DNA of 64,000 bases from Cardiobacteriaceae bacterium (GCA_030529365.1 JAUMXB010000013.1:1-64000); one strand, 5' to 3'. Positions 2,762 to 48,657 are shown, numbered from the stretch's first letter. Notes: generated from the letters alone by a model not told the origin. Program-made: numbers and translations.

Positions 2762-2854
2762 TAGGCGATAAAAAATTACTATTCTAAGCGCTTATCATAG
2801 TGATTTTTTACCGCAGTAAGCGCTTATTGATGGTAAAAAACAACCATTTTTATG
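2762..2854. repeat. AAGCGCTT palindromic element, paired copy (L1)
   Basis: Two AAGCGCTT cores at 2786-2793 and 2818-2825 lie 32 bp apart, flanked by T-rich left arms (gattttttaccg) and A-rich right arms (tggtaaaaaacaac). The right edge reaches the first codons of the LysE-type gene. Confidence 0.85.
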
Positions 2855-3454
2855 CAAAATATGGATACATCTTTGCTGCTTGCGCTTGCGCAAACCCTTT
2901 TCCCTTTCGTGATCAGCCCGGGCGCAAGTTTCGTGCTCACGCTGTCCGCAAGCACGGCAGGCGTGCCTTTTGCCGCGCTGAAAGTGTGGGCGGGTACGGC
3001 GCTGGGTTTGGCTGTGCTGGCGGTGGCAAGCGCGCTCGGCGTTGCCCGGCTGGTGTTGCATTATCCGCTGTTGCAAACGCTGCTGGCGATGATCGGCGGC
3101 GCCTTGCTGGTTTTCTGGGGCGTGCGCCTTTGCCAGCATTCGCCCGCACAGGCAGAGCGACCCTTGCCGCCGCGGCTCGTGGCGAGCGCGTTCACGATAG
3201 TGGTCAGCAATATCAAGGCGATTACGCTCTATGTGGTGCTGCTGCCCGCCCTGTTGCACAGCGTTGATCCATTCACCTTTTATGCGCACGCGCTGGGGCT
3301 GCATGCCGCGATGCTGCTCGCGTGGCTGCTGCTGGTGAGCCTTGGTTTGCGTCATCTGCCGCATCTGGCCGCGTTGCGCCATGGGCTGCTGAAGGCAAGC
3401 GGCCTTTTCATGATCTGGCTCGGCGGCAAAAGCCTGTTGTCCGTATGGGAATGA
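2852..3454 (+). CDS. LysE/RhtB-type transporter
   Basis: A hydrophobic protein of about 200 residues with around six membrane segments. It has a PGASF motif after the first helix, equivalent to the PGP motif of LysE/RhtB amino-acid exporters, and an SNIKAITLYVVLLP segment corresponding to the NPK motif region. The family exports amino acids or related small molecules across the inner membrane; the substrate here is unknown. Either the ATG at 2852 or the one at 2861 could be the start, and neither has a good Shine-Dalgarno because the palindromic element runs up to the gene. That placement could influence expression. Confidence 0.75.
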   Translation: MQNMDTSLLLALAQTLFPFVISPGASFVLTLSASTAGVPFAALKVWAGTALGLAVLAVASALGVARLVLHYPLLQTLLAMIGGALLVFWGVRLCQHSPAQAERPLPPRLVASAFTIVVSNIKAITLYVVLLPALLHSVDPFTFYAHALGLHAAMLLAWLLLVSLGLRHLPHLAALRHGLLKASGLFMIWLGGKSLLSVWE

Positions 3455-3497
3455 GATATCGGGAGCGCTTCGCCATTCAATCTTGCCATAACAGCAA

Positions 3498-3541
3498 AGC
3501 GCAACCTGCCGGGCAATCAAGGGATTGTGGCAGGTTGCGCT
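3498..3541. terminator. strong hairpin between convergent genes
   Basis: A perfect 13-bp stem (agcgcaacctgcc / ggcaggttgcgct) with an 18-nt loop lies between the converging LysE-type and binding-protein genes. No T-run follows on either strand, so a bidirectional transcription-end role is inferred from position only. Confidence 0.45.
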
Positions 3542-3571
3542 GTCATGCACAGGTTGAAAAGTGGTGCCGCC

Positions 3572-4537
3572 TCAGCCAAACAGGCTTGCGTCAGGCGCGG
3601 CACCGCCGACGATCTTGGGATTGAGCTGATACATTTCGTTCAGGAATTGCAGGATTTCCGCACTGATATCTTTAGTGCGAACAGCGGTCAGCGCTGAATG
3701 CGGGAAGGCCTGCTCCAGCGCGGGGACGGGAGCGGGCATGTAGTTGGCAGCGATTTCTGCTGCACTTTTCGGGTGTGCCGCCACCCAGTCAACGGCCTTG
3801 AGCAGGTCTTCATCCAGCGCGGCGAGGAATTCGGCGTGGCTGCTGGCGATATTTTCCGAAACCATCAGGCCGGCTTGCGGGATGCCGTTCTGGCTGCCAA
3901 AGCTGCTGTCCCAGACTTTATCCAGGGAGATACCGCGCGTAACCTGCACACCGGACTGCTTGCCGCGCAGGATGGAAGCACTTGCCAGCGGCTCGGGGAG
4001 CAGTGCGTTGGGGAAATCCTTTTGCAGGAAGAGGAGTACGGCTTCCGGTGGCGTGGCGGTGTAGCTGACCAGGCCGTCGAGCGAGACGCCGCTGCGTTTG
4101 GCAAGAATTTGCAGCACAAGATCGGGCATGTCGTTCTTGAATGGCATGACGATCTTCTGCCCGGCGAGCTGCTCGATGCTGCTGATGACCTGCCCCTTGC
4201 TCATGAGGGCAAGCAGCCCCCGCGTCATGATGTTGTGCAGGATGACGGGCTGGCCCTGCGCACGCAGGTTGGCTGCAACATAGCTGGGCACGATGCTGAT
4301 TTCGATGCTGCGGTTGAGCAGACCGGCACGCAGGTGATCCGGCGTGCGCCAGCTTTGCACCCGGAAGGGGCGGATTTTCCGGGCGTTGCCGATCTGTGCG
4401 GCAATGGCCAGCAGCACGGTTGGCGTTACCGGAGGCCCCCACAGGGTCAGGGTATCGTCGGCCCGCAAGGGCAATGCGCTGGCAGCTCCGGCGAGCGCGC
4501 CCATGCGCAGCAGATGGCGGCGGGTAAGATGCATCAT
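3572..4537 (-). CDS. ABC-type substrate-binding protein with Tat signal
   Basis: About 321 residues. The N-terminus TRRHLLRMGALAGAASALPLRA resembles a twin-arginine signal with a hydrophobic core and an A-x-A-like end, so export to the periplasm is likely. The body looks like a periplasmic binding protein of the NMT1/SsuA type (PFRVQSWRTPDHLRAGLLNRSIEISIVPSYVAANL; GQKIVMPFKNDMPDLVLQIL). It lies 12 bp downstream of the TonB-type receptor gene, so the pair is probably one operon for uptake of one compound. No cognate permease or ATPase is nearby. The ligand is unknown. The start may be either of two adjacent ATGs. Confidence 0.75.
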   Translation of the reverse strand: MMHLTRRHLLRMGALAGAASALPLRADDTLTLWGPPVTPTVLLAIAAQIGNARKIRPFRVQSWRTPDHLRAGLLNRSIEISIVPSYVAANLRAQGQPVILHNIMTRGLLALMSKGQVISSIEQLAGQKIVMPFKNDMPDLVLQILAKRSGVSLDGLVSYTATPPEAVLLFLQKDFPNALLPEPLASASILRGKQSGVQVTRGISLDKVWDSSFGSQNGIPQAGLMVSENIASSHAEFLAALDEDLLKAVDWVAAHPKSAAEIAANYMPAPVPALEQAFPHSALTAVRTKDISAEILQFLNEMYQLNPKIVGGAAPDASLFG

Positions 4538-4549
4538 GAGGTGTCTCCG

Positions 4550-6433
4550 TTAGAAATTGAAGTGGAAGCCCAGCCAGTAGGTGCGCTCGGGTGCGCCCAC
4601 GGCGCGGGTGCTCTGTGCGGCGATGTGCGGCTGCTCGTTGAAGGCGTAGTACTGGCGGTCAAAGAGGTTGTTGACGCCAAGGGTGAGCGCAAAGCGGTCG
4701 CGGGTTTGCAGGCCGGCATAGAGATTGACCGTGGCGTAGCTTTGATGGTTCAGGGGATTGTCCAGCCCCAGACCGCGTTTTTTGTCGCTGTCCAGTCTGC
4801 TGTTTCTGTGGGAATAATGCAGGCTGGCGCCCAGGTTGTAGCTGCCGAATTCGGCATAATCGCGATAATCCACGGCAATGTCGGCACTCATGGGACGCAC
4901 GTTGTACAACGCGCGCTTGTCGGTGTCGTTTTCTCCATACTGGTAGCGAATCTTGCCGCGCACGGCGAGATTGTCCGTGAGACTTTTGGCCGCGCTCAAC
5001 TCCGCACCGATCAGGGTGGCATCCACGTTGCGGCTGATGATGTTGCTGTCTGCCTGCAAGATGCCAGGCTGCCGGCGGGCACGATCCAGCGTGATGAAAT
5101 TGCTGACTTTGTCATAGTCGGCCTGGGCCTCGATTTTCCAGGCGCCGGCCAGATCGCCATGCGCAACCTTGCCATAATCCCGGTAGCCTTCTCCCTGCCA
5201 GCTGCCTTGCAGGCTGATGCGGTTATGGCGTTCCGGCTTCAGGAAGGGGTTGCCGATCCAGCCCGCCCCGTTTTCACCCGGCAGGGCATGGAAGCGCTCG
5301 GTGTTGTCAGGCTGGCGCAGCAGGCTGTCAACACTTACCCGATAGCTTTGCCGTTCGCTGGGCTGGAAGCGGTAGCTCAGGGCAATGCCGAAGCCGTCGG
5401 TCTTTTGCTTGCCCGCAAGCTTGCGTCCGTAATATTTCTGCCAAAGCTGGGCTGGCGCGGGGAAGGTGTTGTTGCCAATCCTGGCCGGCGTGTTTTTAGC
5501 GCGGGGATCAGCACGCAGCACGTCATAGCTCAGGCCGCCACTCAGCTGGTGCGCCGGGGTGATATCCCAGAAATGGTCATAAAAAAGATGCATGCGGTCG
5601 CTGTGGATATCAGGGAAGCGGTAGGCATTGCGCTTTTTCCCCTGCGGCGTGAAGACGAAACGGCTGGCCAGATGCTGGTCATGCCCGTAGGTCAGGCCGA
5701 ATTGCGAGCGCTGCTCGCCATAATGGAGACGGTAATCGGCATTGAGCGTGGTCATTTGCCGTTCGATTTCCATGCCTACGCGCGGTTGTCCTGCTGCCGG
5801 GCGACGCAGGCTGTGGTTGTCGGCAGCGCGTTCCAGATCCACATGGCGCACGTTGAAATTGAAGGTATTGCTTTGATCCTGTGCGCCGATGCGTGCCGTA
5901 CCGTTCAGGACGATGCGCCGGGTGCTCTTGGCATCGAGCTGGAAATGCGGCTGCCTGTCGTCATCGATGCGGTCGTGAATCACGCCCAGACGGTATTCTT
6001 GCCGCGCATCCGGCACCAGGCCGGCCACTACGGCCTGGCCATTGCGCAAATAGCCTGCATTGACCGTCTTTCCGTTGCCATCCTTGTAGCTGTTGAGATT
6101 ATGGCGATAGGCGTGGCCAACGACATAGGCATTGCTGCCACGGAAACGGAACAGGGCACGCTCGCCATCGCTGTAGGGATTGGCTTGCAGGCCAATCAGC
6201 ACGGGTCGGCTCGTCACGCTGCCCACATCCTGCGCCACCGATGCATCTGCCCACGGACGCAGATAATCAAACTGGTTTTCCACCGGCATGGTGAAATCGG
6301 TTTGCGGCGTGATGACTGGCGGCGGGCCGAAGGAAAGCTGCATCTTGTATGCTTCGGCGGAAGCCAGGTTGACTCCCTCTTCCGCATGAAGCGTGGAGAT
6401 GATCAAAGCGGGCAGGAAATAGCGGACGCGCAT
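4550..6433 (-). CDS. TonB-dependent copper-receptor-like outer-membrane protein with most of the plug missing
   Basis: 627 residues ending in YWLGFHFNF, the aromatic C-terminus of outer-membrane barrels. A short signal-like N-terminus is followed by a barrel whose segments (SYKDGNGKTVNAGYLR; a DNHSLR block) recall the OprC/NosA copper-receptor family. The N-terminal plug is strongly shortened. After FDYLRPW (near residue 57), where the plug would start, the sequence passes almost directly into the first barrel strands. There is no RG...LLDG segment, no ERIEVLRGP-type segment and no GGVINI-type segment. About 75 residues of plug core appear absent compared with my recollection of the family. 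The product could be a plugless channel, a decaying receptor or a divergent receptor. Confidence 0.75.
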   Translation of the reverse strand: MRVRYFLPALIISTLHAEEGVNLASAEAYKMQLSFGPPPVITPQTDFTMPVENQFDYLRPWADASVAQDVGSVTSRPVLIGLQANPYSDGERALFRFRGSNAYVVGHAYRHNLNSYKDGNGKTVNAGYLRNGQAVVAGLVPDARQEYRLGVIHDRIDDDRQPHFQLDAKSTRRIVLNGTARIGAQDQSNTFNFNVRHVDLERAADNHSLRRPAAGQPRVGMEIERQMTTLNADYRLHYGEQRSQFGLTYGHDQHLASRFVFTPQGKKRNAYRFPDIHSDRMHLFYDHFWDITPAHQLSGGLSYDVLRADPRAKNTPARIGNNTFPAPAQLWQKYYGRKLAGKQKTDGFGIALSYRFQPSERQSYRVSVDSLLRQPDNTERFHALPGENGAGWIGNPFLKPERHNRISLQGSWQGEGYRDYGKVAHGDLAGAWKIEAQADYDKVSNFITLDRARRQPGILQADSNIISRNVDATLIGAELSAAKSLTDNLAVRGKIRYQYGENDTDKRALYNVRPMSADIAVDYRDYAEFGSYNLGASLHYSHRNSRLDSDKKRGLGLDNPLNHQSYATVNLYAGLQTRDRFALTLGVNNLFDRQYYAFNEQPHIAAQSTRAVGAPERTYWLGFHFNF

Positions 6434-6814
6434 GACAAAACCCTCATCATTTGTAAATGTGCGCGGATAGTAATTATTATCTTTTCCCGTGTCCAGATGC
6501 CTAGGTCAAGTGCATATATATCATATTGAAAATCATAAATATATTTGCAAAAATCACCCATATGGAAGACTGTGATACTGCCGGCTGCGCACTTTGTCAG
6601 CATTAATGCACAGGATTTTGCATTGCACGATACGGCGCTTCAGGGCATCTTCCGATTCTCCTGCCCGCCACGCAGGAATCATTCAACACCCATTTCCTGG
6701 CAGCTCCCTGTTCAATAGACCATCCTGCTGACGCAAGAATTTTCCGCCAGCGCTGGCGATGGGGTTTTGCCCGCAACCCTGCTAGAATCCCGCCTCCGCC
6801 CCGAGAGCATTCCG
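6434..6814. other. intergenic region upstream of the receptor and the DUF1820 gene
   Basis: This 381-bp divergent spacer is AT-rich next to the receptor gene, and I see no credible gene in it. It holds the imperfect palindrome noted at 6466-6481. It presumably contains promoters for both flanking genes. Confidence 0.6.
6466..6481. promoter_or_regulatory. AT-rich imperfect palindrome upstream of the receptor gene
   Basis: gatagTAATTAttatc is a 16-bp imperfect dyad about 33 bp before the receptor start codon. It looks like an operator and partly resembles a degenerate Fur box, but it matches the Fur consensus too poorly to be named. Confidence 0.3.
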
Positions 6815-7126
6815 ATGAGCAAGCCCACGATTTACCGCGTCCAGTTCAAAACCGACAGCCACCATTACGATCTTTATGTCCGCCATGTCTATCCTTCCGA
6901 CATGCACGGCTTCGTCTGCCTGGAAGACTTTCTTTTTCATGAGGAAAGCCGCGTGCTGATCGATCCGCGCACGGAAAAGCTCCATGCCGAATTCGGCGAC
7001 GTGACCACCGCGTTCATTCCCTATCACCAAATCATCCGCATCGATCAGGTCAGCCGCGAAGGCGACAGCCGCATCCAGCCGGCAAGCGGCGGCAGCGGCA
7101 ACAAGATCACGCCGTTCCCGCAATAA
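6815..7126 (+). CDS. DUF1820 family protein
   Basis: 103 residues starting at MSKPTIYRVQF. The pattern YRVQF...YDLYVRHVYPSDMHGFVCLEDFLF...VIDP..EKL..EF..V...IPYHQIIRIDQV matches the DUF1820 family of small gammaproteobacterial proteins. It is soluble and probably cytoplasmic; the function is not known. The C-terminal 20 residues are low-complexity (GGSGNK). The ATG was chosen because homology begins there; the open frame upstream is non-coding in character. It converges on the DUF2798 gene. Confidence 0.8.
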   Translation: MSKPTIYRVQFKTDSHHYDLYVRHVYPSDMHGFVCLEDFLFHEESRVLIDPRTEKLHAEFGDVTTAFIPYHQIIRIDQVSREGDSRIQPASGGSGNKITPFPQ

Positions 7127-7146
7127 TGGCGGCACGGGTCGGCTAC

Positions 7147-7377
7147 TCAGGATCCGGTCGTCCAGCGCGTCAGCCTCATCACCAGCGGGCGCACCGTCAG
7201 CAGGCTCACAAAGGCAATCGGCCAGGCCAGCGCGTAAGAACGCAGGGTGCGAGGCAGCCATTCGCTGTTCACGCCATTATTGAGCGCCACCAGCACCGCG
7301 CTCATGATGAAAGCCATCATCATGGTGGCGTAGAAAGTGAAAACGATGGGGGCGAATTTGGCCGGAATTTTGCTCAT
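7147..7377 (-). CDS. DUF2798 family small membrane protein
   Basis: 76 residues starting at MSKIPAKFAPIVF, with two hydrophobic segments (about residues 9-31 and 44-64) separated by a short loop (NNGVNSEWLPRTLRSYALAW). This is the two-helix architecture of DUF2798 inner-membrane proteins, whose function is unknown. I chose the internal ATG because the longer frame upstream reads into an AAGCGCTT palindromic element. Confidence 0.75.
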   Translation of the reverse strand: MSKIPAKFAPIVFTFYATMMMAFIMSAVLVALNNGVNSEWLPRTLRSYALAWPIAFVSLLTVRPLVMRLTRWTTGS

Positions 7378-7399
7378 GCTTGTTAACAACATCGATATG

Positions 7400-7490
7400 A
7401 TAAATTTTCTCACCAATAAGCGCTTACCATGCAAAAATTTCTCGCAATAAGCGCTTATATTTGGTAAAAAATAACTATTTTTGCAGTTTT
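7400..7490. repeat. AAGCGCTT palindromic element, paired copy (L2)
   Basis: Cores at 7418-7425 and 7449-7456 are 31 bp apart, with aaaaattt between them and ggtaaaaaataac on the right edge. The element fills the space between the DUF2798 gene and the lipoprotein gene. Confidence 0.85.
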
Positions 7491-7496
7491 TATGAA

Positions 7497-7676
7497 TTAA
7501 TTGCCAGTGTGCGCGCTGATGCCGACGCTGCCATAGGCCTGCGTTTGCCCGCCAGCGTTGGTGATGCCGATGGTGTTGTGGCGCGCGGGATCGTTCTGCT
7601 CGAAGCGGTAGGTCACATCATGGTTGCCGCCGCAGGCCGCGAGCAGCAGGGCGAAGGTTGCGAGCGCGATTTTCAT
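7497..7676 (-). CDS. small lipoprotein
   Basis: 59 residues: MKIALATFALLLAACGG..., a typical lipoprotein signal with lipobox LAAC (Cys15). The mature peptide is only about 45 residues (NHDVTYRFEQNDPARHNTIGITNAGGQTQAYGSVGISAHTGN) and belongs to no family I recognise. A gagttt purine stretch lies upstream of the ATG as a modest ribosome site. It sits 65 bp downstream of the CDP-alcohol phosphotransferase-like gene on the same strand. Confidence 0.65.
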   Translation of the reverse strand: MKIALATFALLLAACGGNHDVTYRFEQNDPARHNTIGITNAGGQTQAYGSVGISAHTGN

Positions 7677-7741
7677 AACAAACTCCACGGAAAAGAGCGG
7701 ACAGCATAGTGCAGTTTGCCGGGCAATGTCACGGGCAAATA

Positions 7742-8335
7742 TCAGGCCAACCCCCTGCGTACCCGCTGCCAACAAGTCATGACCAGAAGCACGACGAGTA
7801 TCCACATCACGACGGCGAACCACGCCGGCAACGGTGCGAAAAGCGCGTGGCACAAGGCGAGCACTCCCATCGCAAAGGCACGGTCGCTTTTGCCCAGCGG
7901 ACCATCGTAGCGGCGGCCATTGCCATACACTTGCCCGAGCGCGCCGCACATTTCCGAAAGCGTCGCGAAAAAAATGAAAAGCCCGGCGGCAAGCGGCGAA
8001 AAAGGTGCGACAAAGGCAAAGGGCAGATAGAGCGCGGCATCCGCCACCACATCGGTGATTTCATTGAGATAGCCGCCGAGGCGCGATTGCTGGCCGAATT
8101 CGCGCGCGAGCATGCCGTTCATCGCATTCAACGCCATGCGCACGAACATCCACAGCGGCAGCATAATGAAAAGCCATGATTTTGCGGCAAGAACTGTGAG
8201 CAACACGCCAAGCGCCACGGACACGGCACAGGCAAACAACGTCACCTGATTGGCGGTGATGCCGCGCGCGTGCAGCTTGCGCACCGTGGGGCGCAGCAAG
8301 TTCTGGAAGCGGGGTTTGAAATCATAGATGCTCAT
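7742..8335 (-). CDS. CDP-alcohol phosphatidyltransferase-like membrane protein (YnbA-like)
   Basis: 197 residues, polytopic. The region RMALNAMNGMLAREFGQQSRLGGYLNEITDVVADAALYLPF aligns with the CDP-alcohol phosphatidyltransferase motif D-x2-D-G-x2-A-R-x8-G-x3-D-x3-D. The first two acidic positions are Asn here (N..NG) and the third is Asn as well, leaving only the last Asp. My recollection of E. coli YnbA is NALDGMLAR, with one motif Asp retained. If the Asn substitutions are real, classical two-metal catalysis is doubtful. Family members make phospholipid headgroup transfers at the inner membrane. A GAGAGCAAG ribosome site precedes the ATG. Confidence 0.75.
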   Translation of the reverse strand: MSIYDFKPRFQNLLRPTVRKLHARGITANQVTLFACAVSVALGVLLTVLAAKSWLFIMLPLWMFVRMALNAMNGMLAREFGQQSRLGGYLNEITDVVADAALYLPFAFVAPFSPLAAGLFIFFATLSEMCGALGQVYGNGRRYDGPLGKSDRAFAMGVLALCHALFAPLPAWFAVVMWILVVLLVMTCWQRVRRGLA

Positions 8336-8343
8336 CTTGCTCT

Positions 8344-8400
8344 CAAAAATATCGGTTTTTTGCCAGCATGAAGCGCTTGTCGCGATAAAAAACGTCTATA
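8344..8400. repeat. AAGCGCTT palindromic element, single degenerate copy (L3)
   Basis: One core at 8371-8378 with degenerate arms (atcggttttttgccagcatg / tcgcgataaaaaac). It lies between the DUF2238 gene and the CDP-alcohol phosphotransferase-like gene. Confidence 0.65.
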
Positions 8401-8403
8401 ACA

Positions 8404-9045
8404 TCAGGAAACATAATCCATCTTCCGGTCAGGCCGCACCACGAGATAGATGGCGAGCGCGGTGAGCGCGCCCAGCGTATCGGCGAGAATATCCTTCTGC
8501 GCATCCCAGATGTCGCCCTGCGAGCCGAGAAATTCGATGCCGGCGTCGCCCCCTTCGATCACCGCATATTGCCATTCGATGATTTCGTAAGCGCCAGCCA
8601 CGCTCATGATGAAAAAGAGCGCAAAGAAAAAGGCGAGCTTCGGGCCGCAGAGCTTGCGGCGCAACAGCCATTCCATCATCGGATAGCTGTAGAAGCCGAT
8701 GATGTAGTGGGCGAGGCGGTCGTAATGGTTGCGGTCCTCGCCGAGGATGGGCGTGAGCAGGCGGTTGCCCCATTCGAAAGGCACGTTGGCGAAAGTGTAG
8801 TGCGCGCCGACGAGGTGCATGAGTAGCCACAGGCTCATCAGAAAATAGGCGAGATTGCTGAAACGGAAGCGCGGATAGGTGATGACGAGCGCGGCAAAGA
8901 CGGCAAAAATCGGAATGACTTCCGCCCACCACACGGCGCGATCGAAAGGCGCGATGCCCGACCAGACGGCCACGGCAGCGATGAAGACGGCCAGCGCGGC
9001 AGGAAAGGCATGGGATTCACGATGATTCATAAAGCCAGCGTCCAT
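8404..9045 (-). CDS. DUF2238 (YjdF-like) membrane protein
   Basis: 213 residues with about six membrane helices. Diagnostic parts are MHLVGAHYTFANVPF, DRNHYDRLAHYIIGFYSYP, EIIEWQ and SQGDIWDAQKDILADTLGAL. His, Asp and Glu residues lie within helices, as in DUF2238/YjdF inner-membrane proteins. The family function is unknown; the conserved polar residues in the membrane suggest metal or lipid chemistry. The start is uncertain between the first ATG and an ATG five codons later. Confidence 0.8.
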   Translation of the reverse strand: MDAGFMNHRESHAFPAALAVFIAAVAVWSGIAPFDRAVWWAEVIPIFAVFAALVITYPRFRFSNLAYFLMSLWLLMHLVGAHYTFANVPFEWGNRLLTPILGEDRNHYDRLAHYIIGFYSYPMMEWLLRRKLCGPKLAFFFALFFIMSVAGAYEIIEWQYAVIEGGDAGIEFLGSQGDIWDAQKDILADTLGALTALAIYLVVRPDRKMDYVS

Positions 9046-9184
9046 GGAAAATATTCGCGGCTTTTTATCACGTCCGCACCGGCAAGGGGGATTTTTTTCC
9101 GTCCGCGCAGATTGGGCATACTCGCCGTTGCGCAGCGATTGCGGGATTTCGCCTGCTGCGTCCCGTAAAACCAGGAAGCGCTTC

Positions 9185-9370
9185 TAGAGCATTTTTGATT
9201 CATCTAATAGCAGGATTTGCTGAGGAAAGGATGTGGAAAGCTTTGTTTCTGCCCTCACCCCAACCCCAATCTCGCTTCGCGAGCTCTGACGAGTCCCACG
9301 GGATTCGAAGAACTCGCGAAGCGAGATTGGGGCTTTGAATTCTGTTCACATTTGAGTCAAAAACGCTCTA
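9185..9370 (+). mobile_element. MITE-like element, copy 1 (182 bp plus TA on both sides)
   Basis: The element starts GAGCATTTTTGATTCA and ends with the near inverse TGAGTCAAAAACGCTC, flanked by TA on both sides, as for IS630/Tc1-type insertion. Internally it has a long stem (ccaatctcgcttcgcgag / ctcgcgaagcgagattgg). There is no coding capacity. A second copy in the opposite orientation lies at 54998-55176. Confidence 0.75.
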
Positions 9371-9612
9371 GTACCCGCAGGGCAAATCCTATCGGCATCG
9401 CTTTGCGAAGCCGCAGGTCGATATTGGTTTGCTGTCGGCTATCCATGGCCGGGCACTCACAAAAATCGCTGCGCGACGGTGGGTTCCGCTTCCCATAAAA
9501 ATGCGTTCGCATTTTTATGGGTACCCGGACAACATCCACCCTACGGAAAATGTGCGTCGTAGCTGGCAAACCTATCCCGTGCGGCGGCTCAGCTGAAGCC
9601 CACTTTTTATTC

Positions 9613-9690
9613 ATAAAAATTGCAAATATGGTTATTTTTTACCACAAATAAGCGCTTATTGTGGTAAAAATGATGATACATTGCTTCAAT
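9613..9690. repeat. AAGCGCTT palindromic element, single copy (L5)
   Basis: Single core at 9650-9657 inside a nearly perfect inverted repeat: ttttttaccacaaataagcg against cgcttattgtggtaaaaa, differing by one base. Left edge tgcaaatatggtta. It sits immediately 3' of truD. Confidence 0.85.
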
Positions 9691-9698
9691 ATACGTTT

Positions 9699-10700
9699 TT
9701 ATGCCGTTTCGCCGCTTGCACTGGCGGGGCGGCTGGCGTCTTGCACGGCAAAGAGCGCGTCGAGCAGGGTGGTGGCAAAGGCGCCGGCGGGGAGGATGAA
9801 GTCGAGGACAAGGGTGGCGTCGTCCTGCCATTGCCATTGCACGTCGCGGGCGCGCAGCCACATGGGGCGCCAGTCACTTTCGGCATGCGCCTGCAAATAG
9901 GCGAGCATCGCCGCTTCTTCGGCGAGAATGGGGGCGCGGATGGCACCGGCTTCGCCAGCGAGCGGCACTTCGCCTTTGCCTGCGAGCCAGCCGCCGGGGG
10001 CGATGTCGCCGCTTTGTGCGCGAGCGCGCAGGGCATCATCCACGGCTTCGACGGCAAAATGGCTGTGGCTGCCGGCAAGCATGGCGCGATCGCCGGAGAG
10101 GATTTCACGGGCACGCTCGCCGCGCACTTCAAGTTCGCAGTTGAAAAGCCAGGCGCGCAGCACGGAGAGCACACGGCCGCGTTCGTCATGCTTTTTCGGC
10201 AGGACGCCGCGCGCGACCCATTCGCGCGCCCAGGCGAGGTTGTCGCGGCCGAAGCGCTGCACGCCGAAGGCATTGGCAAAGCCTTGGTCGCGCAGATCGG
10301 CGAGGGCGCTGTCGATGGCGGCGCGTTCGCCCTGCACATCGCGCAAGGTGAGCACGAAGCGGTTTGCGCGGTGGGTGCCGATGCGCAACTTTTTCTGGTG
10401 GCGCTGGTATTCCAGGATGCGCCAGCCGTCGCCGCAAGACGGCAGGGCATCGCGGTATTTCCACGGCAGCGACAGCCATTGTTCGGTAACGGCGTGGCGG
10501 TCCTTCAGGCCGCTGTGGGCGATGTCGCGTTCCGGGCAGCCGCTCGCGCGGGCGATGTCCTTTTTCAGCCAGGCGGTGTTCATGGCGGTTTTTTCCACGC
10601 GCAGCCAGAGATGCTCGCCATCGCCGCTCCACGGGATGTTCATGATTTCGAAGACTTTGAAATCGGCAGGCTGGGTGCGGATGGTGGCATGGGCTTTCAT
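9699..10700 (-). CDS. truD: tRNA pseudouridine(13) synthase TruD
   Basis: 333 residues. The TruD family signature is present: GLKDRHAVTEQ with catalytic Asp67, and NAFGVQRFGRDN near residue 140. The N-terminus carries the expected PADFKVFEI segment. The enzyme isomerises U13 in tRNA-Glu. The start codon overlaps the stop of the upstream dehydrogenase gene by 4 bp (ATGA), so translation is probably coupled. The gene ends about 9 bp from a palindromic AAGCGCTT element. Confidence 0.93.
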   Translation of the reverse strand: MKAHATIRTQPADFKVFEIMNIPWSGDGEHLWLRVEKTAMNTAWLKKDIARASGCPERDIAHSGLKDRHAVTEQWLSLPWKYRDALPSCGDGWRILEYQRHQKKLRIGTHRANRFVLTLRDVQGERAAIDSALADLRDQGFANAFGVQRFGRDNLAWAREWVARGVLPKKHDERGRVLSVLRAWLFNCELEVRGERAREILSGDRAMLAGSHSHFAVEAVDDALRARAQSGDIAPGGWLAGKGEVPLAGEAGAIRAPILAEEAAMLAYLQAHAESDWRPMWLRARDVQWQWQDDATLVLDFILPAGAFATTLLDALFAVQDASRPASASGETA

Positions 10701-12844
10701 GGGGCGTTTCCGGCAAGCTGGTTCAGGAAAAGTTCGCGTTCGCGCGCGAGCGTCATGCTGAGCGAGAGCATGGGGGTGGCGCTGTCGGCGGCAAAGAGGG
10801 TGAGCATGCGCCGGTAGAGTTCGGGATCGCGCAGGGTATCGGCGCGCGCGGCCAGAAGGGAGAGCGCTTCTGCCGACAAGGCGGGCTGCGGCACGCGGTA
10901 GCTGCGCGGCAGCCGGGCGTTCAGCCAGGAATGGGCGAGGTCGCTGGTCATTTGCGGCAACACGGCGCGGTTCATGACGAACATGTCCTGGGCGCGGGCG
11001 AGGCCGAGTTCGCGCATGCGGTGCACGCCGATGCCGCCCTGCTTGTTGATGAGGTGGGCGAGCACGGCATGGATTTGCTCGAGGTGCACGGTGAGGGTGA
11101 GGGAAGGCAGGCGGCGCAGCCATTCAAAGGCGATAGCGCCGAACGGCAGCAGGCCTTGCGCAGGCGCGGCAAGATGGCAACGCAGGTCCATGTCGCTGAT
11201 GATGCGGTCGGCCTGCATGAGGATGGCGCAGCCGCTGTCGTGCACATCGCCGGTTATCGAGGCGAGCACGGGGCGGGGCAGCATGCGCAGTTCCATGAGC
11301 AGGCGGCTGAGGGCGGCACTTTCTTCGGCCACCTCTTGCGGCGCGCTGTGGTGCAGTTGCCGCCAGTCGTGAGCATGGCCGAAGGTTTCGCCGCGGTGAT
11401 AGAGGAGGAGCATGCGGTGCTCCTGCTTGGCATCGGTGCAAATGGTGGCAAGCTCGTCGAGGGTTTGCCGGTCGAGGGCAAGGCGGGTGTGCCTCGGCTG
11501 CCAGATGAGCAGGCCTTCCTGGTAACGCCAGCTGCTGCTGTTGCGCAAATCGCGCCATTGCCGGCTTTTGTCGGCAAAGGGGTTGGGCAGCTGGCGGGCG
11601 TCGCTGTCTTCGCTGTTGCGCCGCCCTTTGAGGCTTTTCAGCACGGAGGGCGGATTGCCCAGGGTTTTCAGCACTTTTTTCGGGTTGAATGCCAGCAGCA
11701 GCTGGTGCGGCTGTACCTGCCAGGCAAGGCCATGGCGCACGAGGATGTCAAGCGCTTCCGGCGGAAGGGCCAGTTCCCGGCTGACGTGGGCAAGCGCTGT
11801 CCAGATGTCGCCCAGCCAGGCGCAGACGAAGCGCGCATGTGCATGGTCGAGGCTTGCCAGCGCGGCCCAGTCGTAGGCGCGGAAGGCGGAGAGCGTCATG
11901 TCGTCCGGCGCTGCCGCATGGTATGCCGGCGCGGTTGCGTTGTCTCCGGCAAACAGGCCGCCGGCAAAGGCGCGGGCATTGCCGTGGCGCTCCGCCATGC
12001 TGGCAATCCACGGCGGCAGGGTGATTTTGTCGCCCCACAGGGCATAGTCGCTGGCTGGCGTGCGGGCGTGGATGTCACAGAAGCGCTGCCAGCCAATGCG
12101 GTCAAGCAGGCCGATCAGGCCGCCATCGTAGCGGCCGCAGACGAGCGCGGTGAGGCTTGCCACGTCTTCCAGCGGCAGCGCCAGATGGGCGGCATGGTGA
12201 AAAGCGCTGGTGACGGCGAGCACCTGAAAACGGTTGGCGGCGAAGTTGTCGCTGTCGGGCACGACGACGATTTCCGCACCGAGCAGGTCGCGAAAAAAGC
12301 CCTGCACACGCTCTTGCGTGCGCGGCTCGGTGCGCGAGGCGGGAATGAGTTCGATGGCACGCTGGAAGCGCGGCGGGCGGAAAAAGTGGGCGCCGAGGAA
12401 ACGCGGCCGACAACCGGCAGGCAGGCATTGGGCAATGGCTTCCACTGACAGCCCGCCGCTGATGGAGAGGATGACGGCATCGCGTTGCAGGCCGGGGGCT
12501 ATGCGGCTCAGGATACCCTGCTTGACGGCCAGGTCGTCGCCCGCGCATTCAATGACGAGATCGTGCTCGGCCAGCATCGACCAGTGATCGCGATAATTGC
12601 GCGCATCCATGAGCGATGCCGCTTCCTGTCCGGCAAACGGCAGGGGGCGCATTTGCAGCAGCGCGGTTATCGCGGCCTGCGCGCGGGCATTGGGCGCGTC
12701 GGCGCCGGCCCTGTCGTACAGGCGCACACGCACGCCGGCATCGGCAAAACGCGCGGCAATCAGCGCGCCCATCGGCGTCGCGCCGAGAATGGCGGGGCGC
12801 TGAAAGGTAAATGCCTGGGTGCTTGCCGCTTCGGGTCGGTTCAT
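10697..12844 (-). CDS. 3-hydroxyacyl-CoA dehydrogenase / enoyl-CoA hydratase-like fusion
   Basis: 715 residues. The N-terminal half is an NAD-binding hydroxyacyl-CoA dehydrogenase: ILGATPMGALIA (about 19-30) as the dinucleotide fold, IECAGDDLAVKQ as the family IE-block, a GAHFFRPP segment with the catalytic His near 150, and NRF near 205. The C-terminal third looks like a crotonase fold (LLLYHRGETFG; PVLASITGDVHDSGCAILMQADRII) but lacks the usual GGG oxyanion-loop pattern and obvious Glu pairs. Hydratase activity is therefore uncertain. The order (dehydrogenase first) is like B. subtilis FadN rather than E. coli FadB. It overlaps truD by 4 bp. A GAGGAAA ribosome site precedes the ATG. Confidence 0.8.
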   Translation of the reverse strand: MNRPEAASTQAFTFQRPAILGATPMGALIAARFADAGVRVRLYDRAGADAPNARAQAAITALLQMRPLPFAGQEAASLMDARNYRDHWSMLAEHDLVIECAGDDLAVKQGILSRIAPGLQRDAVILSISGGLSVEAIAQCLPAGCRPRFLGAHFFRPPRFQRAIELIPASRTEPRTQERVQGFFRDLLGAEIVVVPDSDNFAANRFQVLAVTSAFHHAAHLALPLEDVASLTALVCGRYDGGLIGLLDRIGWQRFCDIHARTPASDYALWGDKITLPPWIASMAERHGNARAFAGGLFAGDNATAPAYHAAAPDDMTLSAFRAYDWAALASLDHAHARFVCAWLGDIWTALAHVSRELALPPEALDILVRHGLAWQVQPHQLLLAFNPKKVLKTLGNPPSVLKSLKGRRNSEDSDARQLPNPFADKSRQWRDLRNSSSWRYQEGLLIWQPRHTRLALDRQTLDELATICTDAKQEHRMLLLYHRGETFGHAHDWRQLHHSAPQEVAEESAALSRLLMELRMLPRPVLASITGDVHDSGCAILMQADRIISDMDLRCHLAAPAQGLLPFGAIAFEWLRRLPSLTLTVHLEQIHAVLAHLINKQGGIGVHRMRELGLARAQDMFVMNRAVLPQMTSDLAHSWLNARLPRSYRVPQPALSAEALSLLAARADTLRDPELYRRMLTLFAADSATPMLSLSMTLARERELFLNQLAGNAP

Positions 12845-12933
12845 GTCTTTCCTCGTTCCTGTCCGGCAAGGGATATTGCCGGGCCGGTGTACGCGAGGTT
12901 TGCAGACATGTTTTTCATGATTCCGTCAAAATT

Positions 12934-13016
12934 GAGAAAATTTACCACTATTAAGCGCTTTCTGTGATAAAAAATCACTATCTTAAGCGCTTACTATAGT
13001 AGATTTTTATCATCTT
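12934..13016. repeat. AAGCGCTT palindromic element, paired copy (L6)
   Basis: Cores at 12953-12960 and 12985-12992 are 32 bp apart. The right arm overlaps the stop codon of proS. Confidence 0.85.
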
Positions 13017-16591: not shown

Positions 16592-16662
16592 AAAAATATC
16601 AAAAATAATTATTTTTTACCATCATAAAGCGCTTATCATGCAAAAAATTCTCACACAAAGCA
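16592..16662. repeat. AAGCGCTT palindromic element (L7), at the 5' end of the GNAT gene
   Basis: Intact core at 16627-16634; a degenerate second core (acaaagca) lies at the usual 31-bp offset. The inter-core sequence atcatgcaaaaaattctcaca matches that of L12 apart from one base. Confidence 0.75.
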
Positions 16663-20211: not shown

Positions 20212-20227
20212 ACCATTTTTCTCTTAA

Positions 20228-28710: not shown

Positions 28711-28738
28711 CGCGAAACCGTGACCAGGAAGCGATAAT

Positions 28739-32032: not shown

Positions 32033-32056
32033 CGCTACTGATGCAAATATGACTGT

Positions 32057-33835: not shown

Positions 33836-33935
33836 TCATGATAAATATTATCGATTTTTACGCCAGTGATATATGTTTTTTACCACAATAAGCGCTTCAT
33901 GATGATAAAAAACAACTATCTTGCAGGAAGATTTA
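33836..33935. repeat. AAGCGCTT palindromic element (L14)
   Basis: One intact core at 33890-33897 with arms gttttttaccacaat / catgatgataaaaaacaac. A T-rich arm lies further left without an intact second core. Confidence 0.8.
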
Positions 33936-35243: not shown

Positions 35244-35267
35244 GTTGGTGTTTTCCGGTTGAGTCAA

Positions 35268-35365
35268 TGGGATTTTTTCTCACCAACAAGCGCTTCTTGC
35301 GAGAAATTTTCTCACCATAAGCGCTTATGTTTGGTAAAAATACGATATTTTATCAAGATTATTGC
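35268..35365. repeat. AAGCGCTT palindromic element, paired copy (L15)
   Basis: Cores at 35288-35295 and 35319-35326, 31 bp apart. The inner arms (cttgcgagaaattttctcacc) form their own dyad; right edge tttggtaaaaatacgat. It reaches the end of the FAD oxidoreductase gene. Confidence 0.87.
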
Positions 35366-36498: not shown

Positions 36499-36586
36499 CC
36501 GGATGATATCTTGCTTAACAGACGTTCATTCTGCCATCAATATTTTTTATCGGCAACTGAGTTTATGTTTCATTAAGCATCGTGAA

Positions 36587-36650
36587 ATAGAGATTTTTTA
36601 TCACGGCAAGCGCTTTGTTATGGTAAAAAATAACTATATTTTGCTATTTT
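36587..36650. repeat. AAGCGCTT palindromic element, single copy (L16), inside a gene 3' end
   Basis: Core at 36608-36615 with arms gattttttatcacggc / tttgttatggtaaaaaataac. The right arm encodes the last residues (KIAKYSYFLP) of the pseudouridine synthase. Confidence 0.85.
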
Positions 36651-38200: not shown

Positions 38201-39790
38201 ATGTATCGCCTGAGCGTGGTGATGATCGTGAAAAACGAAGCCGCCAATCTGCGCCGCACCCTGCCCGTTATCGCCCGGGTTGCCGATGAAATCATCGTGC
38301 TGGATTCCGGCAGCGCGGATGAGAGCGAGCACGTCGCCCGCGAACACGGCGCGCAGTGGCACACGAACACCGACTGGCAAGGCTACGGCATCCAGCGCCA
38401 GCGCGCGCAGGCGCTCGCGAGCGGCGACTGGATATTGGCGCTCGATGCCGACGAAGTGCCGGATGACGCGCTGTTACAAGCGCTTGCCGCGAAAAAGCAC
38501 GAAGCGCCGGGCAATACCGTGTATGGCATCCGCCGCATCGATTACGTCTTCGGCCATGCCATCGATTCGCCGCACTGGCGACTGAAAGCGCACTGGCGGC
38601 TGTACCCCGCGCGCTTTGCCTACAACGCCAACCCCGTGCATGAATCCGTGCAACTCAATGACGCAGAAACCGTCATCCTTCCCGGATTCTTGCAGCACCA
38701 CACCGCCGATACGCCGCATTTCTGGCTGGAAAAACGCCTCGCCTACGCGCTCACCTGGGCAAAAGACCGCGCTGCCCGCGGCAAGCGCGTCTCCGCACTA
38801 GGAGCAGCGGCGCGCGCGCTGTGGGCATTTTTCAAGCAATATCTGGCCGACGGCCGCTTTTTGTGCGGGCGCCATGGCTGGAGCTACGCCTGGCTTTTCG
38901 CGCAATACACTTTCAACAAATACGCGCTCTTGAACGACCTCACCCACCGCCCGCAAAGCTATCGTGATGATTTCGAGCCGCATGCCATCAACCGCCACCA
39001 TCTGCCGCCCGTGCCGAAAGCGCCCGGCAATCCGCATCCCCTGAGCGCCGTCTTCATCGTCAAAAACGAAGCGCGCCATCTGCCTGCCTGCCTGGCGAGC
39101 ATTGCCGATCTTGCCGATGACATCGTGCTGCTCGATTCCGGCAGCACGGATGAAACGGAAAGCATCGCCCGCCATTTCGGCGCCCGATGGTATGTGAACA
39201 CCGACTGGCAGGGCTTCGGCATCCAGCGCCAGCGCGCCCAGGCGCTCGCCACAGGCGAATGGATTCTGGTGCTCGATGCCGACGAGCAGCCCGATGCCGA
39301 ACTGAAAGCCTCCATTCGCAAGGTCATTGCCCACGCGCCGGATGCAAATACTGTCCATGCCGTGCGTCGCCCCAATATTTTCTGCGGCACGCCGGTGCAT
39401 GCCTGGTATCGCGACGAAATCGTCCGCCTCTATGGCCGCGAACATTTCCATTACCATCCCTATGAAGTGCATGAATCACTGGACAGCGGCCACGCCGCAG
39501 TGCAAACGCTTGCCGGCGATCTGCGCCATTTCACCAACGACAATCTTCACCACTTCCTCGCCAAAAACGTGCGCTACAGCCACATCTGGGCAGAAGAAAA
39601 AGCGCTTGCCGGCAAAAAAGCGCCCAATCTGTGGACGCTGCCGCTCAAAAGCAGCATTGCCTTTTTGCGCGAATATGTGTTGCGCGGCGCCTTTCGTGGC
39701 GGGCGCTACGGCTTTTTCCTCGCCATGGCCAGCGCCGGCTATCATTTCAACAAATACCTGATGCTGGCCTTTGCCCGCAAACCGTCATGA
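38201..39790 (+). CDS. tandem two-domain GT2 glycosyltransferase (WaaE/KdtX-like duplicated)
   Basis: 529 residues made of two homologous family-2 glycosyltransferase modules. Module 1 starts LSVVMIVKNEAANL and has VLDSGSADESE, TDWQGYGIQRQRAQALASGDWILALDADE (D-x-D near 82). Module 2 starts near residue 281 (LSAVFIVKNEARHL) and repeats LLDSGSTDETE, TDWQGFGIQRQRAQALATGEWILVLDADE. Each module ends in a FLREYVLRG-like or FFKQYLADG segment and HFNKY. WaaE-type enzymes are normally one such module adding glucose to heptose in LPS core. A duplicated fusion may add two sugars in sequence. It overlaps waaL by 4 bp. Confidence 0.85.
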   Translation: MYRLSVVMIVKNEAANLRRTLPVIARVADEIIVLDSGSADESEHVAREHGAQWHTNTDWQGYGIQRQRAQALASGDWILALDADEVPDDALLQALAAKKHEAPGNTVYGIRRIDYVFGHAIDSPHWRLKAHWRLYPARFAYNANPVHESVQLNDAETVILPGFLQHHTADTPHFWLEKRLAYALTWAKDRAARGKRVSALGAAARALWAFFKQYLADGRFLCGRHGWSYAWLFAQYTFNKYALLNDLTHRPQSYRDDFEPHAINRHHLPPVPKAPGNPHPLSAVFIVKNEARHLPACLASIADLADDIVLLDSGSTDETESIARHFGARWYVNTDWQGFGIQRQRAQALATGEWILVLDADEQPDAELKASIRKVIAHAPDANTVHAVRRPNIFCGTPVHAWYRDEIVRLYGREHFHYHPYEVHESLDSGHAAVQTLAGDLRHFTNDNLHHFLAKNVRYSHIWAEEKALAGKKAPNLWTLPLKSSIAFLREYVLRGAFRGGRYGFFLAMASAGYHFNKYLMLAFARKPS

Positions 39791-40977: not shown

Positions 40978-41957
40978 AAATCCTCCACGTCCATTTGACA
41001 GACCACCCCATCCCGCCCGTGGACTACGGCGGTACCGAGCGCGTGCTGTGGGCGCTGGTGCTTGGGCAGCAGACGCTGGGGCATGAAGTGCGCATCCTCG
41101 CCAAAAGCAATCCGGGGCGGCATTCTTTCGTGCAATGTCTCGATGCTGCACGCCCGCTTGAAGCGCAACTCGACGGCTGGGCAGACATCGTCCATTTCCA
41201 CTGGCCGCATGACGGCGATCTCGCGACCCCTTTCGTCTGCACCCAGCACGGCAATCGCGGCAACCAGACACCCTATCCGCTGAACACCATCTTTCTCTCG
41301 CAAAAGCACGCCGCCATCCACGATGCCGAGTGCCACGTTTACAACGGCCTGCATTGGCCGGAATACGGCGACGTGCAATGGGACACGCCGCGCACGGGCA
41401 TCCATTTCCTCGCCAAGGCCTCGAACGGCAATAAAAATTTGCGAGGCGCCGTCCGCATCGCGCGCAAGGCCGGGCTGCCCTTGCGCGTACTGGGCGGCAG
41501 GCGCCTCAATCTCAAATCCAACAAATATTTCTATGCAGGCCGTGATCTCGCCTTTCACGGCATGGTGAACGATGCCGAAAAGCGCTTCCTGCTCAACCGC
41601 TCGCAAGCGCTGCTTTTCCCCGTCTTGTGGCACGAGCCTTTCGGGCTTGCCATCATCGAAAGCCTGTATTACGGCTGCCCGGTGATAGCCAGTGCTTACG
41701 GCTCGCTGCCGGAACTCGTGCACGACGATATCGGCCTGGCCAGCAACAGCGAAAGCGCACTGGTTGAAGCGCTTCATCATCTCGGGCGCTTCGACCGCCG
41801 CGCCTGCCACGAATACGCGAGAACCCGCTTTGACCATCTCACCATGAGCCGCGCCTATCTCGATTGCTACGCGCGCGTGCTCGCCGGTGAAACCCTGAAT
41901 CCACGGCCGCCCGCAACCCGCACCGACGCCCTTGTCTCCCTCACCCTCGAACCCTGA
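40974..41957 (+). CDS. GT4-type glycosyltransferase
   Basis: 327 residues of the GT-B fold. The N-terminal loop DYGGTERVLWALVLGQQTLGHEV is typical of GT4 enzymes. The C-terminal donor site is FPVLWHEPFGLAIIESLYYGCPVIASAYGSLPELV, with the E-x7-E pattern. It overlaps both waaL-like and msbA genes by a few bases, so it is co-translated with LPS-core genes and probably adds a core sugar from a nucleotide-sugar donor. Confidence 0.82.
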   Translation: MKILHVHLTDHPIPPVDYGGTERVLWALVLGQQTLGHEVRILAKSNPGRHSFVQCLDAARPLEAQLDGWADIVHFHWPHDGDLATPFVCTQHGNRGNQTPYPLNTIFLSQKHAAIHDAECHVYNGLHWPEYGDVQWDTPRTGIHFLAKASNGNKNLRGAVRIARKAGLPLRVLGGRRLNLKSNKYFYAGRDLAFHGMVNDAEKRFLLNRSQALLFPVLWHEPFGLAIIESLYYGCPVIASAYGSLPELVHDDIGLASNSESALVEALHHLGRFDRRACHEYARTRFDHLTMSRAYLDCYARVLAGETLNPRPPATRTDALVSLTLEP

Positions 41958-43699: not shown

Positions 43700-43715
43700 T
43701 GCTTCCAGATCCAAC

Positions 43716-43812
43716 GTGAGAAATTTTCTCATCGATAAGCGCTTATTATGCAAAAATTTCTCATTGAAAGCGCTTATTGATGAGAAAATATACCGTTTTT
43801 TTGTTATTTTTG
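43716..43812. repeat. AAGCGCTT palindromic element, paired copy (L17)
   Basis: Cores at 43737-43744 and 43768-43775, 31 bp apart, with arms gagaaattttctcatcg, tgcaaaaatttctcattg and tgatgagaaaatata. Confidence 0.9.
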
Positions 43813-44447: not shown

Positions 44448-44849
44448 GTTTCCTCCTGTTATCCCGGCAACTGGATTGCCATCTTACCCGGCTTCAGGCA
44501 AGAGGCGCTGGGTTTCATGCAAAACCGCTTCGCAATGTTACGGAAACCTGATGCAAGTCCATGCTGTACGGTTGCGACTTCGCCCAACCGCCCCTGCCAT
44601 TTGCCCTGTGAAAACTCCATCACGCCATTTTTGATGATAAAAATCATCCATTCAAAGCGCTTTATGTAATGATTTTTTACCGCACAAAGCGCTTATGCAT
44701 GATAAAAAATAACTATTATCAAGATATTTTTGAAAAATTTCCTTGTTCAAAGCCTGTTTGCCCCTTATTGGCCGAAATATTGCACTTTGGTTAGGTGCGC
44801 CGTATTATCGCCCGTTCGTATTCAAACCAAGAACCATGAGGAGTAGGCA
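44448..44849. other. intergenic region before the peptide transporter operon
   Basis: About 400 bp. The left half holds a REP-like fragment (gtacggttgcgacttcgcccaaccg); the right half holds an AAGCGCTT element and the presumed operon promoter. No gene is seen. Confidence 0.55.
44630..44735. repeat. AAGCGCTT palindromic element, paired copy (L18)
   Basis: Cores at 44655-44662 and 44687-44694, 32 bp apart. Outer arms tgatgataaaaatcatc and gcatgataaaaaataac. Confidence 0.87.
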
Positions 44850-46568: not shown

Positions 46569-46596
46569 CCTTTCCGTTCATATAGAGGAGAAACCC

Positions 46597-48138: not shown

Positions 48139-48160
48139 GCGTATAACCAACCTCTGACCC

Positions 48161-48242
48161 GTAGGATGGGCATCAGCCCATGCGGTTTGCGAATGTGCCA
48201 TATGCACTTGCATACCATCGTTTCGTGATACCGCATGGATTG
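48161..48242. repeat. REP-like palindromes upstream of the RAYT relic
   Basis: GTAGGATGGGCATCAGCCCAT (GTAG head plus hairpin), followed about 50 bp later by an inverted-looking atggattgcccatcc. It resembles a second set at 48660-48802 on the other side of the relic. Confidence 0.6.
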
Positions 48243-48278
48243 CCCATCCACGGCCAAACACAACCAAGGAATCCGACC

Positions 48279-48550
48279 ATGACGGCGTACCGCCGCCACC
48301 AAGCGTCAGCCAGGCGCAAAAAAGCGAACTCGGCATCTGGCAACGCCGCTTTTGGGAACACGCCATTCGCGACGATGACGACCTGCAACGCCACGTTTTC
48401 TAGACCTACTACAACCCGGTCAAACACGGACATGTGCGACGGGTGGTGGACTGGCCGCACTCCTCCTTTCAGCGCGACGTGCGTCGCGGCTTTTTCGTGC
48501 CGGATTGGGGCGGCGAATTGCGCCTTCGCTACGGAACTGTACGACGAATA
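48279..48550 (+). pseudogene. REP-associated tyrosine transposase (RAYT) relic
   Basis: The first seven codons read MTAYRRH, the usual RAYT start, with an AAGGA ribosome site. After an internal deletion and frame change, the other end reads GIWQRRFWEHAIRDDDDLQRHVF, then TAG, then [37 protein letters not shown]. This is the C-terminal signature of REP-associated tyrosine transposases (IS200/IS605-like Y1 fold). The in-frame TAG at 48401 and the missing catalytic core show it is dead. It lies between REP-like palindromes, the typical genomic setting of RAYTs. Confidence 0.85.
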
Positions 48551-48569
48551 AAGAAAATTCACAAAATGA

Positions 48570-48657
48570 TGCAAAATAGTATATTTTTACCATCCATAAG
48601 CGCTTATCGTGAGAAAATTTTTCATGAAAAGCGCTTATGGATAGTAAAAAATACCAC
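48570..48657. repeat. AAGCGCTT palindromic element, paired copy (L19)
   Basis: Cores at 48598-48605 and 48629-48636, 31 bp apart. The outer arms (atttttaccatccataagcg / gcttatggatagtaaaaaat) pair with each other across both cores. Confidence 0.9.

Follow-up and report, generated by a model that had tools for sequence, protein, structure and literature searches.

What is the palindromic octamer AAGCGCTT, which recurs, often in pairs, in the gaps between genes along a 64-kb stretch of DNA from a member of the Cardiobacteriaceae? An earlier note on this DNA had left the choice between a site for a two-site protein, a structured RNA and a mobile unit. As detailed below, recognition of the element as DNA stood up to analysis, whereas the structured RNA and recent mobility did not.

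The stretch as a whole (the window) belongs to a genome of 2.30 Mb, G000. GC content here, at 57.6-58.0%, compares with 58.0% recorded for Cardiobacterium valvarum (PMC11881992), and the order, judged by its make-up, is probably the Cardiobacteriales, an assignment on which none of the results depends. Detailed statistics were obtained from 415 kb of G000 (18% of the genome), 472 kb of a sister species (G001, assembly 78% complete), 330 kb of another genus of the same family (G009), 400 kb of a motif-poor comparison genome (G003) and 160 kb of G007, and whole-genome pattern counts were used beside them. Genes were called with a simple hexamer-model caller. Expected counts were derived from 100 dinucleotide shuffles for the window and from shuffling synonymous codons within genes for coding cores.

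Elements in the window

The core, a perfect 8-bp palindrome, occurs 39 times in the window, compared with a mean of 2.5 and a maximum of 7 in the shuffled sequences. Twenty-eight of the 39 cores are grouped into 18 elements located within gene gaps or at their margins; the remaining 11 are lone cores inside genes. Both the abundance of the octamer and the roughly eighteen intergenic loci of the earlier note were thus recovered, as were all ten pairs it had named, with core starts 31 or 32 bp apart, and a perfect 16-bp arm pair formed by positions 23667-23682 and 23702-23717. Coordinates below are those of the window, and no strand is assigned.

2760-2851: paired element, cores 2786 and 2818 (32 bp); codirectional gap; same pair in the orthologous G001 gap
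7392-7482: paired element, cores 7418 and 7449 (31 bp)
8345-8404: single-core element, core 8371
9150-9209: single core in a gap, core 9176; arms degenerate or absent
9624-9683: single-core element, core 9650; flanked on each side by GGTAAAAA arms
12927-13018: paired element, cores 12953 and 12985 (32 bp); orthologous pair in G001
16601-16660: single-core element, core 16627
17818-17908: paired element, cores 17844 and 17875 (31 bp); convergent genes on either side
20225-20284: single-core element, core 20251; G001 ortholog identical in length and layout
23662-23721: single-core element, core 23688; bears the perfect 16-bp arm pair
28729-28819: paired element, cores 28755 and 28786 (31 bp)
31944-32034: paired element, cores 31970 and 32001 (31 bp); first core starts at the last stop-codon base of gene 29043-31970
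33864-33923: single-core element, core 33890
35262-35352: paired element, cores 35288 and 35319 (31 bp); orthologous pair in G001
36582-36641: single-core element, core 36608; ortholog in G001
43711-43801: paired element, cores 43737 and 43768 (31 bp)
44629-44720: paired element, cores 44655 and 44687 (32 bp)
48572-48662: paired element, cores 48598 and 48629 (31 bp)
11750-11757: lone intragenic core; substituted in G001
21050-21057: lone intragenic core; conserved in G001
22694-22701: lone intragenic core; substituted in G001
27598-27605: lone intragenic core
29059-29066: lone intragenic core; substituted in G001
30061-30068: lone intragenic core; substituted in G001
31392-31399: lone intragenic core; substituted in G001
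38478-38485: lone intragenic core; substituted in G001
39600-39607: lone intragenic core; substituted in G001
41580-41587: lone intragenic core; substituted in G001
41767-41774: lone intragenic core; substituted in G001

In one stretch, a 15.4-kb end is free of elements and lies beside atp and parAB genes, a neighbourhood typical of an origin region.

Architecture and placement of the gap elements

Each gap core is embedded in an oriented frame, in which a TTTNNCR block is positioned 4 bp off one side of the octamer and a YGNNAAA block 5 bp off the other. This 4/5 or 5/4 rule is obeyed by 36 of 37 resolved single cores in G000 and by 33 of 34 in G001, and a 4/4 arrangement does not occur among them. 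Resolved paired cores are nearly all arranged as N5-core-N4 facing N4-core-N5, i.e. as two oppositely oriented units (in G000, 57 cores in first and 57 in second position; in G001, 70 of each; no more than five exceptions in either genome). The pairs have a 15-bp inner block, TGAGAAAWTTTCTCA, in common, and the core spacing of 31 bp arises because the core (8 bp), a spacer (4 bp), the inner block (15 bp) and a further spacer (4 bp) follow one another. The outer arms read GGTAAAAAATNACTATTTTT or TGAGAAAATTTCTCA; since one of each is usually present (32 of 47 resolved cases in G000 and 46 of 53 in G001), the paired element is itself oriented. It extends over about 92 bp, ends in a sharp right boundary and has the consensus AAAAATAGTGATTTTTTACCATCAT-AAGCGCTT-ATCGTGAGAAAATTTCTCACGAT-AAGCGCTT-ATTGATGAGAAAATTTCTCAT. 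On the 5-bp side of the G000 core, A/T tracts peak at distances of about 12, 23 and 33 bp, measured from the edge of the core, which is near the helical period, and tracts phased by about 10.5 bp are found on both sides of the gap copies of this genus (g1). The fixed 4/5 spacers, the distance of three helical turns between cores and the phased A/T tracts bear out the DNA-recognition part of the two-site reading.

The placement of the cores is equally regular. In the 415 kb of G000, core-to-core distances below 60 bp are limited to 31 bp (73 cases), 32 bp (7) and 30 bp (2), the next distance being 63 bp, and core density amounts to 2.58 per kb between genes versus 0.25 per kb inside genes. Lack of a preferred spacing and lack of intergenic enrichment had been named in advance as what would speak against the element; the 31-bp peak and the higher density between genes are what was found. 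Elements of G000 are mostly located 20-60 bp 3' of a stop codon, and gaps of at least 60 bp hold an element in 83 of 126 codirectional, 25 of 34 convergent and 13 of 38 divergent cases, the latter mostly long gaps. Gap elements are conserved, as every one of the 12 orthologous gaps that hold a core in G000 also holds one in G001, and two further orthologous gaps have a core in G001 only.

Cores that share one face of the helix, combined with phased A/T tracts, would be suited to bending or wrapping, and the elements could represent sites of a nucleoid-associated or topology protein behind genes, comparable to BIME elements, which are used by gyrase and IHF, or of a macrodomain protein. The 31-bp core spacing, the phasing on both sides, the orientation-independent position shortly after stop codons and the element-free end beside atp and parAB are all consistent with such a role. 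However, armless cores in genes and thousands of armless copies in G009 would be left unexplained, and the origin-side gap is one stretch only. We consider sites of this kind decidedly unlikely.

The arms had been described as varying while remaining complementary. In the 72 pairs whose cores are 31 bp apart, the arms match no better than arms shuffled between elements, with 7.04 of 11 versus 7.01 positions for the inner and 8.86 of 14 versus 9.02 for the outer arms; the complementarity stems from the palindromic consensus and not from paired changes. Neither orientation prevails relative to neighbouring genes, both for single elements (11:12 in G000, 8:12 in G001) and for pairs (21:17 and 17:23, respectively). 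Reading outward from the pairs, a T-rich tail follows in 14 of 164 cases; of 28 terminator-like sites in the 20 kb scanned, none is located on an element, in agreement with the earlier description as the reverse of an intrinsic terminator, and no Rfam family was matched in the window. Because the arms do not covary, orientation is independent of the genes and a U-tract is missing, the element is regarded as DNA and not as a structured RNA or a terminator. A structured RNA was rejected on the equal complementarity of shuffled arms and a terminator on the missing U tract. Placement after stop codons and self-complementarity would suit an RNA element at 3' ends, either a terminator or an mRNA stabiliser, but neither covariation nor strand bias is seen, T-rich tails and terminator-like sites are distributed as given above, and cores are enriched within genes, which makes an RNA element highly improbable.

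Alternatively, the gap elements could descend from a palindromic unit of the MITE or REP kind that was mobile long ago, spread through gene gaps and is now fixed. The orientation of the paired element, with its mixed GGTAAAAAATNACTATTTTT and TGAGAAAATTTCTCA ends, its sharp right boundary and the non-independent variation of its columns (sd 0.071 versus 0.049 shuffled) are consistent with such an origin. On the other hand, recent copies are missing from G000 (best identity 0.82, within the shuffled range), positions are common to the sister species, with elements at the same gene ends, and genic cores correspond to octamers changed by substitution. Nor would such a unit account for the core enrichment in genes, and it was absent from the phages, plasmids and IMG/VR viral contigs searched. 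Recent mobility is not borne out by these data, and a mobile unit as the sole explanation appears very unlikely.

The octamer inside genes and across genomes

High abundance of AAGCGCTT is confined to few lineages. Whole-genome counts gave 1,674 cores and 462 pairs in the 2.3 Mb of G000 (729 per Mb), 1,427 cores and 446 pairs in G001, and 4,391 cores in the 1.6 Mb of G009 (about 2,740 per Mb, one per 366 bp), where the site is extended to CAAAGCGCTTTG. The cores of the genome-wide G000 pairs are 31 bp apart, rarely 30 or 32. Among 32 genomes of the order, only these three are rich in cores and the others contain 4-235; in a survey of 370 genomes of the class Gammaproteobacteria, more than about 100 per Mb was found in G000 only. 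The ratio of perfect to one-mismatch copies is 3.11 in G009, 0.66 in G000 and 0.06 in two motif-poor genera, the value of G000 being tenfold over the motif-poor genera, yet below 1. In G009, cores reach 5.88 per kb between genes and 2.34 per kb in genes and are spaced more evenly than random (CV 0.90, with a deficit below 50 bp); neither flanking A/T tracts nor a fixed pair spacing was detected around them. DNA of foreign appearance is devoid of cores, as seen in an AT-rich island carrying an integrase and a nonribosomal peptide synthetase (L022, zero cores over 10.7 kb) and in a low-GC stretch in L030/L031, likewise with zero. Among the matches listed for the octamer letters in the open-access literature, none is related by title, and an earlier description elsewhere is possible.

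In a tree of ProRS sequences, g1 and g5, both motif-rich genera, group with the motif-poor g3 and g6 (90/90), and the branch of G009 is long. Because this leaves the placement of G009 unsure, the core may have had a common origin followed by loss or may have been gained in parallel.

The octamer is also favoured inside genes, and more strongly so in the second genus, where it has no arms. Coding cores number 80 in G000 compared with 15.4 expected from the synonymous-codon shuffle (5.2-fold), 61 compared with 14.8 in G001, 676 compared with 46.5 in G009 (14.5-fold) and 13 compared with 5.1 in the motif-poor G003. In G000 genes, AAGCGCTT is the most over-represented of all palindromic octamers, and its coding copies carry no A/T arms. 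Codon choice is bent toward completing the octamer: leucine is encoded by CTT in 11% of cases overall in G000, in 36% where the octamer is completed and in 16% after other GCG codons, the corresponding values being 13%, 96% and 24% in G009 and 8%, 6% and 11% in G003. The proteome of G009 is marked as well, with 187 occurrences of QSAL versus 3 expected in the sample read. Coding cores kept in G001 amount to 3 of 19, no more than control octamers, and these cores therefore turn over and are not fixed sites. Of the 19, 16 have an ungapped, substituted octamer as their counterpart in G001, only ungapped octamers being counted; this bears on whether coding cores arise by point mutation, as uptake sequences do, or by insertion.

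Enrichment in coding DNA brings in the strongest rival explanation, a palindrome of 8-12 bp of the HIP1 kind, which would be kept by selection or repair bias for upkeep of the chromosome (methylation, mismatch repair or segregation) and not for uptake. The density of 729 per Mb in G000 lies inside the HIP1 range of 300-2,700 and that of about 2,740 per Mb in G009 marginally above it, and the palindromic nature, the extended form CAAAGCGCTTTG in G009 and the coding enrichment agree with this explanation. We know, however, of no paired, arm-bearing form of HIP1 behind genes. Moreover, a matching methyltransferase was reported for every HIP genome (PMC4390886), and no such link is apparent in G000 and G001 for the two domain families searched. 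The C5-methyltransferase domain PF00145 was found in neither G000 nor G001, the latter 78% complete, and once in G009; PF01555 is represented by one protein in G000, none in G001 at the same completeness and two in G009. A link to a C5-methyltransferase was rejected on the absence of the domain from G000 and G001. A palindrome kept for upkeep appears unlikely, while retaining an appreciable chance.

LacI-family sites often have a AAGCGCTT-like centre, and exactly one PF00356 protein each is encoded in G000 and G001 and none in the other ten genomes of the family, as might be expected if the cores were operators of such a regulator. However, the lone PF00356 gene adjoins genes for a sugar kinase of the PfkB type and for an ABC permease, G009 as the genome richest in copies has no PF00356, and there are 1,674 sites, many of them genic. 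With its sole regulator in a sugar operon and missing from G009, a LacI operator was rejected and is scarcely credible.

A possible uptake signal and its relation to known systems

Judged from sequence, AAGCGCTT may, with about an even chance, be the palindromic core of a DNA uptake signal for natural transformation in this lineage. We infer that a putative receptor of the uptake apparatus would recognise the GC core together with A/T tracts one helical turn apart on either side, and that this recognition would lead to preferential intake of DNA from the same species. Signals would accumulate by drive wherever they are tolerated, because signal-bearing fragments, once taken up, would recombine back. 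The tolerated form would be bare cores in genes and, in the gaps behind genes, full units with both arms, often two of them head to head. Acquired DNA without the core, as in the 10.7-kb island L022, argues for this reading.

ComEC, which is needed for transformation, is encoded in G000, G001 and G009 and, beyond these, in eight genomes of the family that are poor in the motif and is therefore not specific to the motif-rich ones. If the order is indeed the Cardiobacteriales, a 1985 study listed among the references of PMC3630211 is relevant, in which Cardiobacterium hominis was reportedly identified by genetic transformation. The distance between core and tracts exceeds that in Pasteurellaceae, and the cores of standard uptake signal sequences (USS) and DNA uptake sequences (DUS) are not palindromes; both observations count against an uptake signal. 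The same holds for the oriented and bounded paired element of about 92 bp, which could have spread by copying, and the paired unit could have been mobile long ago and still serve in uptake. Since cores in G009 and coding cores in G000 are devoid of A/T tracts, the arms may serve something else.

More specifically, and with a probability a little short of even, the site is tentatively proposed to be a two-sided palindromic uptake signal that a dimeric receptor recognises and that would be present as a paired, arm-bearing 4/5 unit in one genus and as one site per 366 bp in another. To our knowledge, Pasteurellaceae and Neisseriaceae are the only families for which sequence-specific uptake of a cell's own DNA is well documented, and we know of no prior description of a palindromic two-sided uptake signal of such architecture. 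If the proposal holds, codon choice and protein sequence would have been bent genome-wide by uptake, as in the 187 versus 3 QSAL motifs, and an uptake dialect with an architecture that is new as far as we know would exist outside those two families. This third lineage, in which copies reach about 2,740 per Mb, would provide an independent origin for comparison. Related genera at about 730 per Mb, at 2,740 per Mb and at background would then allow a clean test of signal build-up, and there would be a receptor to seek. If the octamer is instead HIP-like, such a palindrome would occur outside cyanobacteria, beside motif-free relatives, and its purpose could be tested there.

Among known systems, the combination of features appears to find its best match in USS and DUS, the core being unusually palindromic for such a signal, and HIP1-type palindromes are the main rival. 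REP and BIME sequences resemble the elements in being palindromic units repeated behind genes, some as inverted pairs, but differ from them in that the arms here are AT-rich, the octamer is also favoured in genes and recent copies are missing from G000. HIP1 of cyanobacteria (GCGATCGC) is likewise a perfect palindrome of similar density that occurs throughout genes and has extended flanks in some genomes. It differs in sequence (AAGCGCTT here) and phylum and by its cognate methyltransferases, of which no C5 kind was found in G000 or G001.

The USS of Pasteurellaceae (AAGTGCGGT and ACAAGCGGT) resemble the octamer in their short GC core at roughly one copy per kb, in being favoured in gaps but common in genes, in inverted pairs, in an excess of perfect copies, seen here in G009, and in A/T tracts that flank the core about one turn from each other, seen here in the gap copies of g1. 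Published USS and DUS show a density near one per kb, an excess of perfect copies as a hallmark, a preference for gaps combined with use of genes, inverted pairs, regular spacing and dialects between related genera, and segments 2 and 3 of the USS are 12 bp apart (PMC1626085). In contrast to the USS, the core described here is a perfect palindrome, the tracts are placed on both sides and farther out, the spacers follow the 4/5 rule, pairing is fixed at 31 bp and the family is a different one, with uptake inferred only.

A precedent for the dyad symmetry is found in the DUS of Neisseriaceae, which also label the genome in and between genes and form dialects that differ among related genera. In one genome with such dyad DUS, as known from Simonsiella and Kingella, more than 1,000 dyad-symmetric overlapping pairs are present; for Simonsiella, 1,294 dyad-symmetric uptake sequences were counted and dimer-based recognition was suggested (PMC3630211). 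The sequences are unrelated, and the dyad there is composed of two overlapping DUS, whereas here it is a single palindrome of 8-12 bp.

Core-free stretches

No copy of the palindromic octamer core AAGCGCTT lies in the final 15.4 kb of the window (48637-64000), an absence that could reflect operon structure or depletion on the origin side. Among the genes encoded here are those for ATP synthase subunits and ParA/ParB, a gene content typical of a replication-origin region. Within L022, one of the genome stretches read, an AT-rich island (1147-11900, GC about 30-35%) harbors genes for a nonribosomal peptide synthetase, an SHMT-like protein, an EamA transporter, a GMC oxidoreductase, a phosphopantetheinyl transferase and a phage integrase, and contains no cores.

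Repeats in gene gaps

A second repeat family of the genome (G000), with the ends GTAGGGACGT...ACGTCCCTAC, is located at 14455-14600 of stretch L033 and elsewhere; 34 copies of ACGTCCCTAC were counted across 415 kb of G000, compared to 0.2 expected. Further gap repeats, of the CCCTCACCCCAACCCC-type and the GTAGGCTGGGTTAG...CTAACCCAGCCTAC-type, are found at 9031-9698 of the window and at loci L204, L209 and L211 of the sister species (G001), and the two species differ in these repeats at orthologous gaps. In L207 of G001, the two paired elements at 4289 and 4603, which lie 314 bp apart, are 95% identical and have similar flanks, a local duplication.

Coding imprint and depletion in related genera

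In the sample (L173-L190) of the core-richest genome, G009, the tetrapeptides QSAL (187 versus 3.2 expected), KALC (29 versus 0.5) and KALW (24 versus 0.7) are all encoded by CAAAGCGCTTTG. In two genomes of genus g6 of the same order AAGCGCTT is nearly missing, with 4 copies in G010 and 7 in G011 (reversed control: 49 and 41). This scarcity, in combination with 7 and 5 C5-methyltransferase matches, respectively, suggests restriction-site avoidance.
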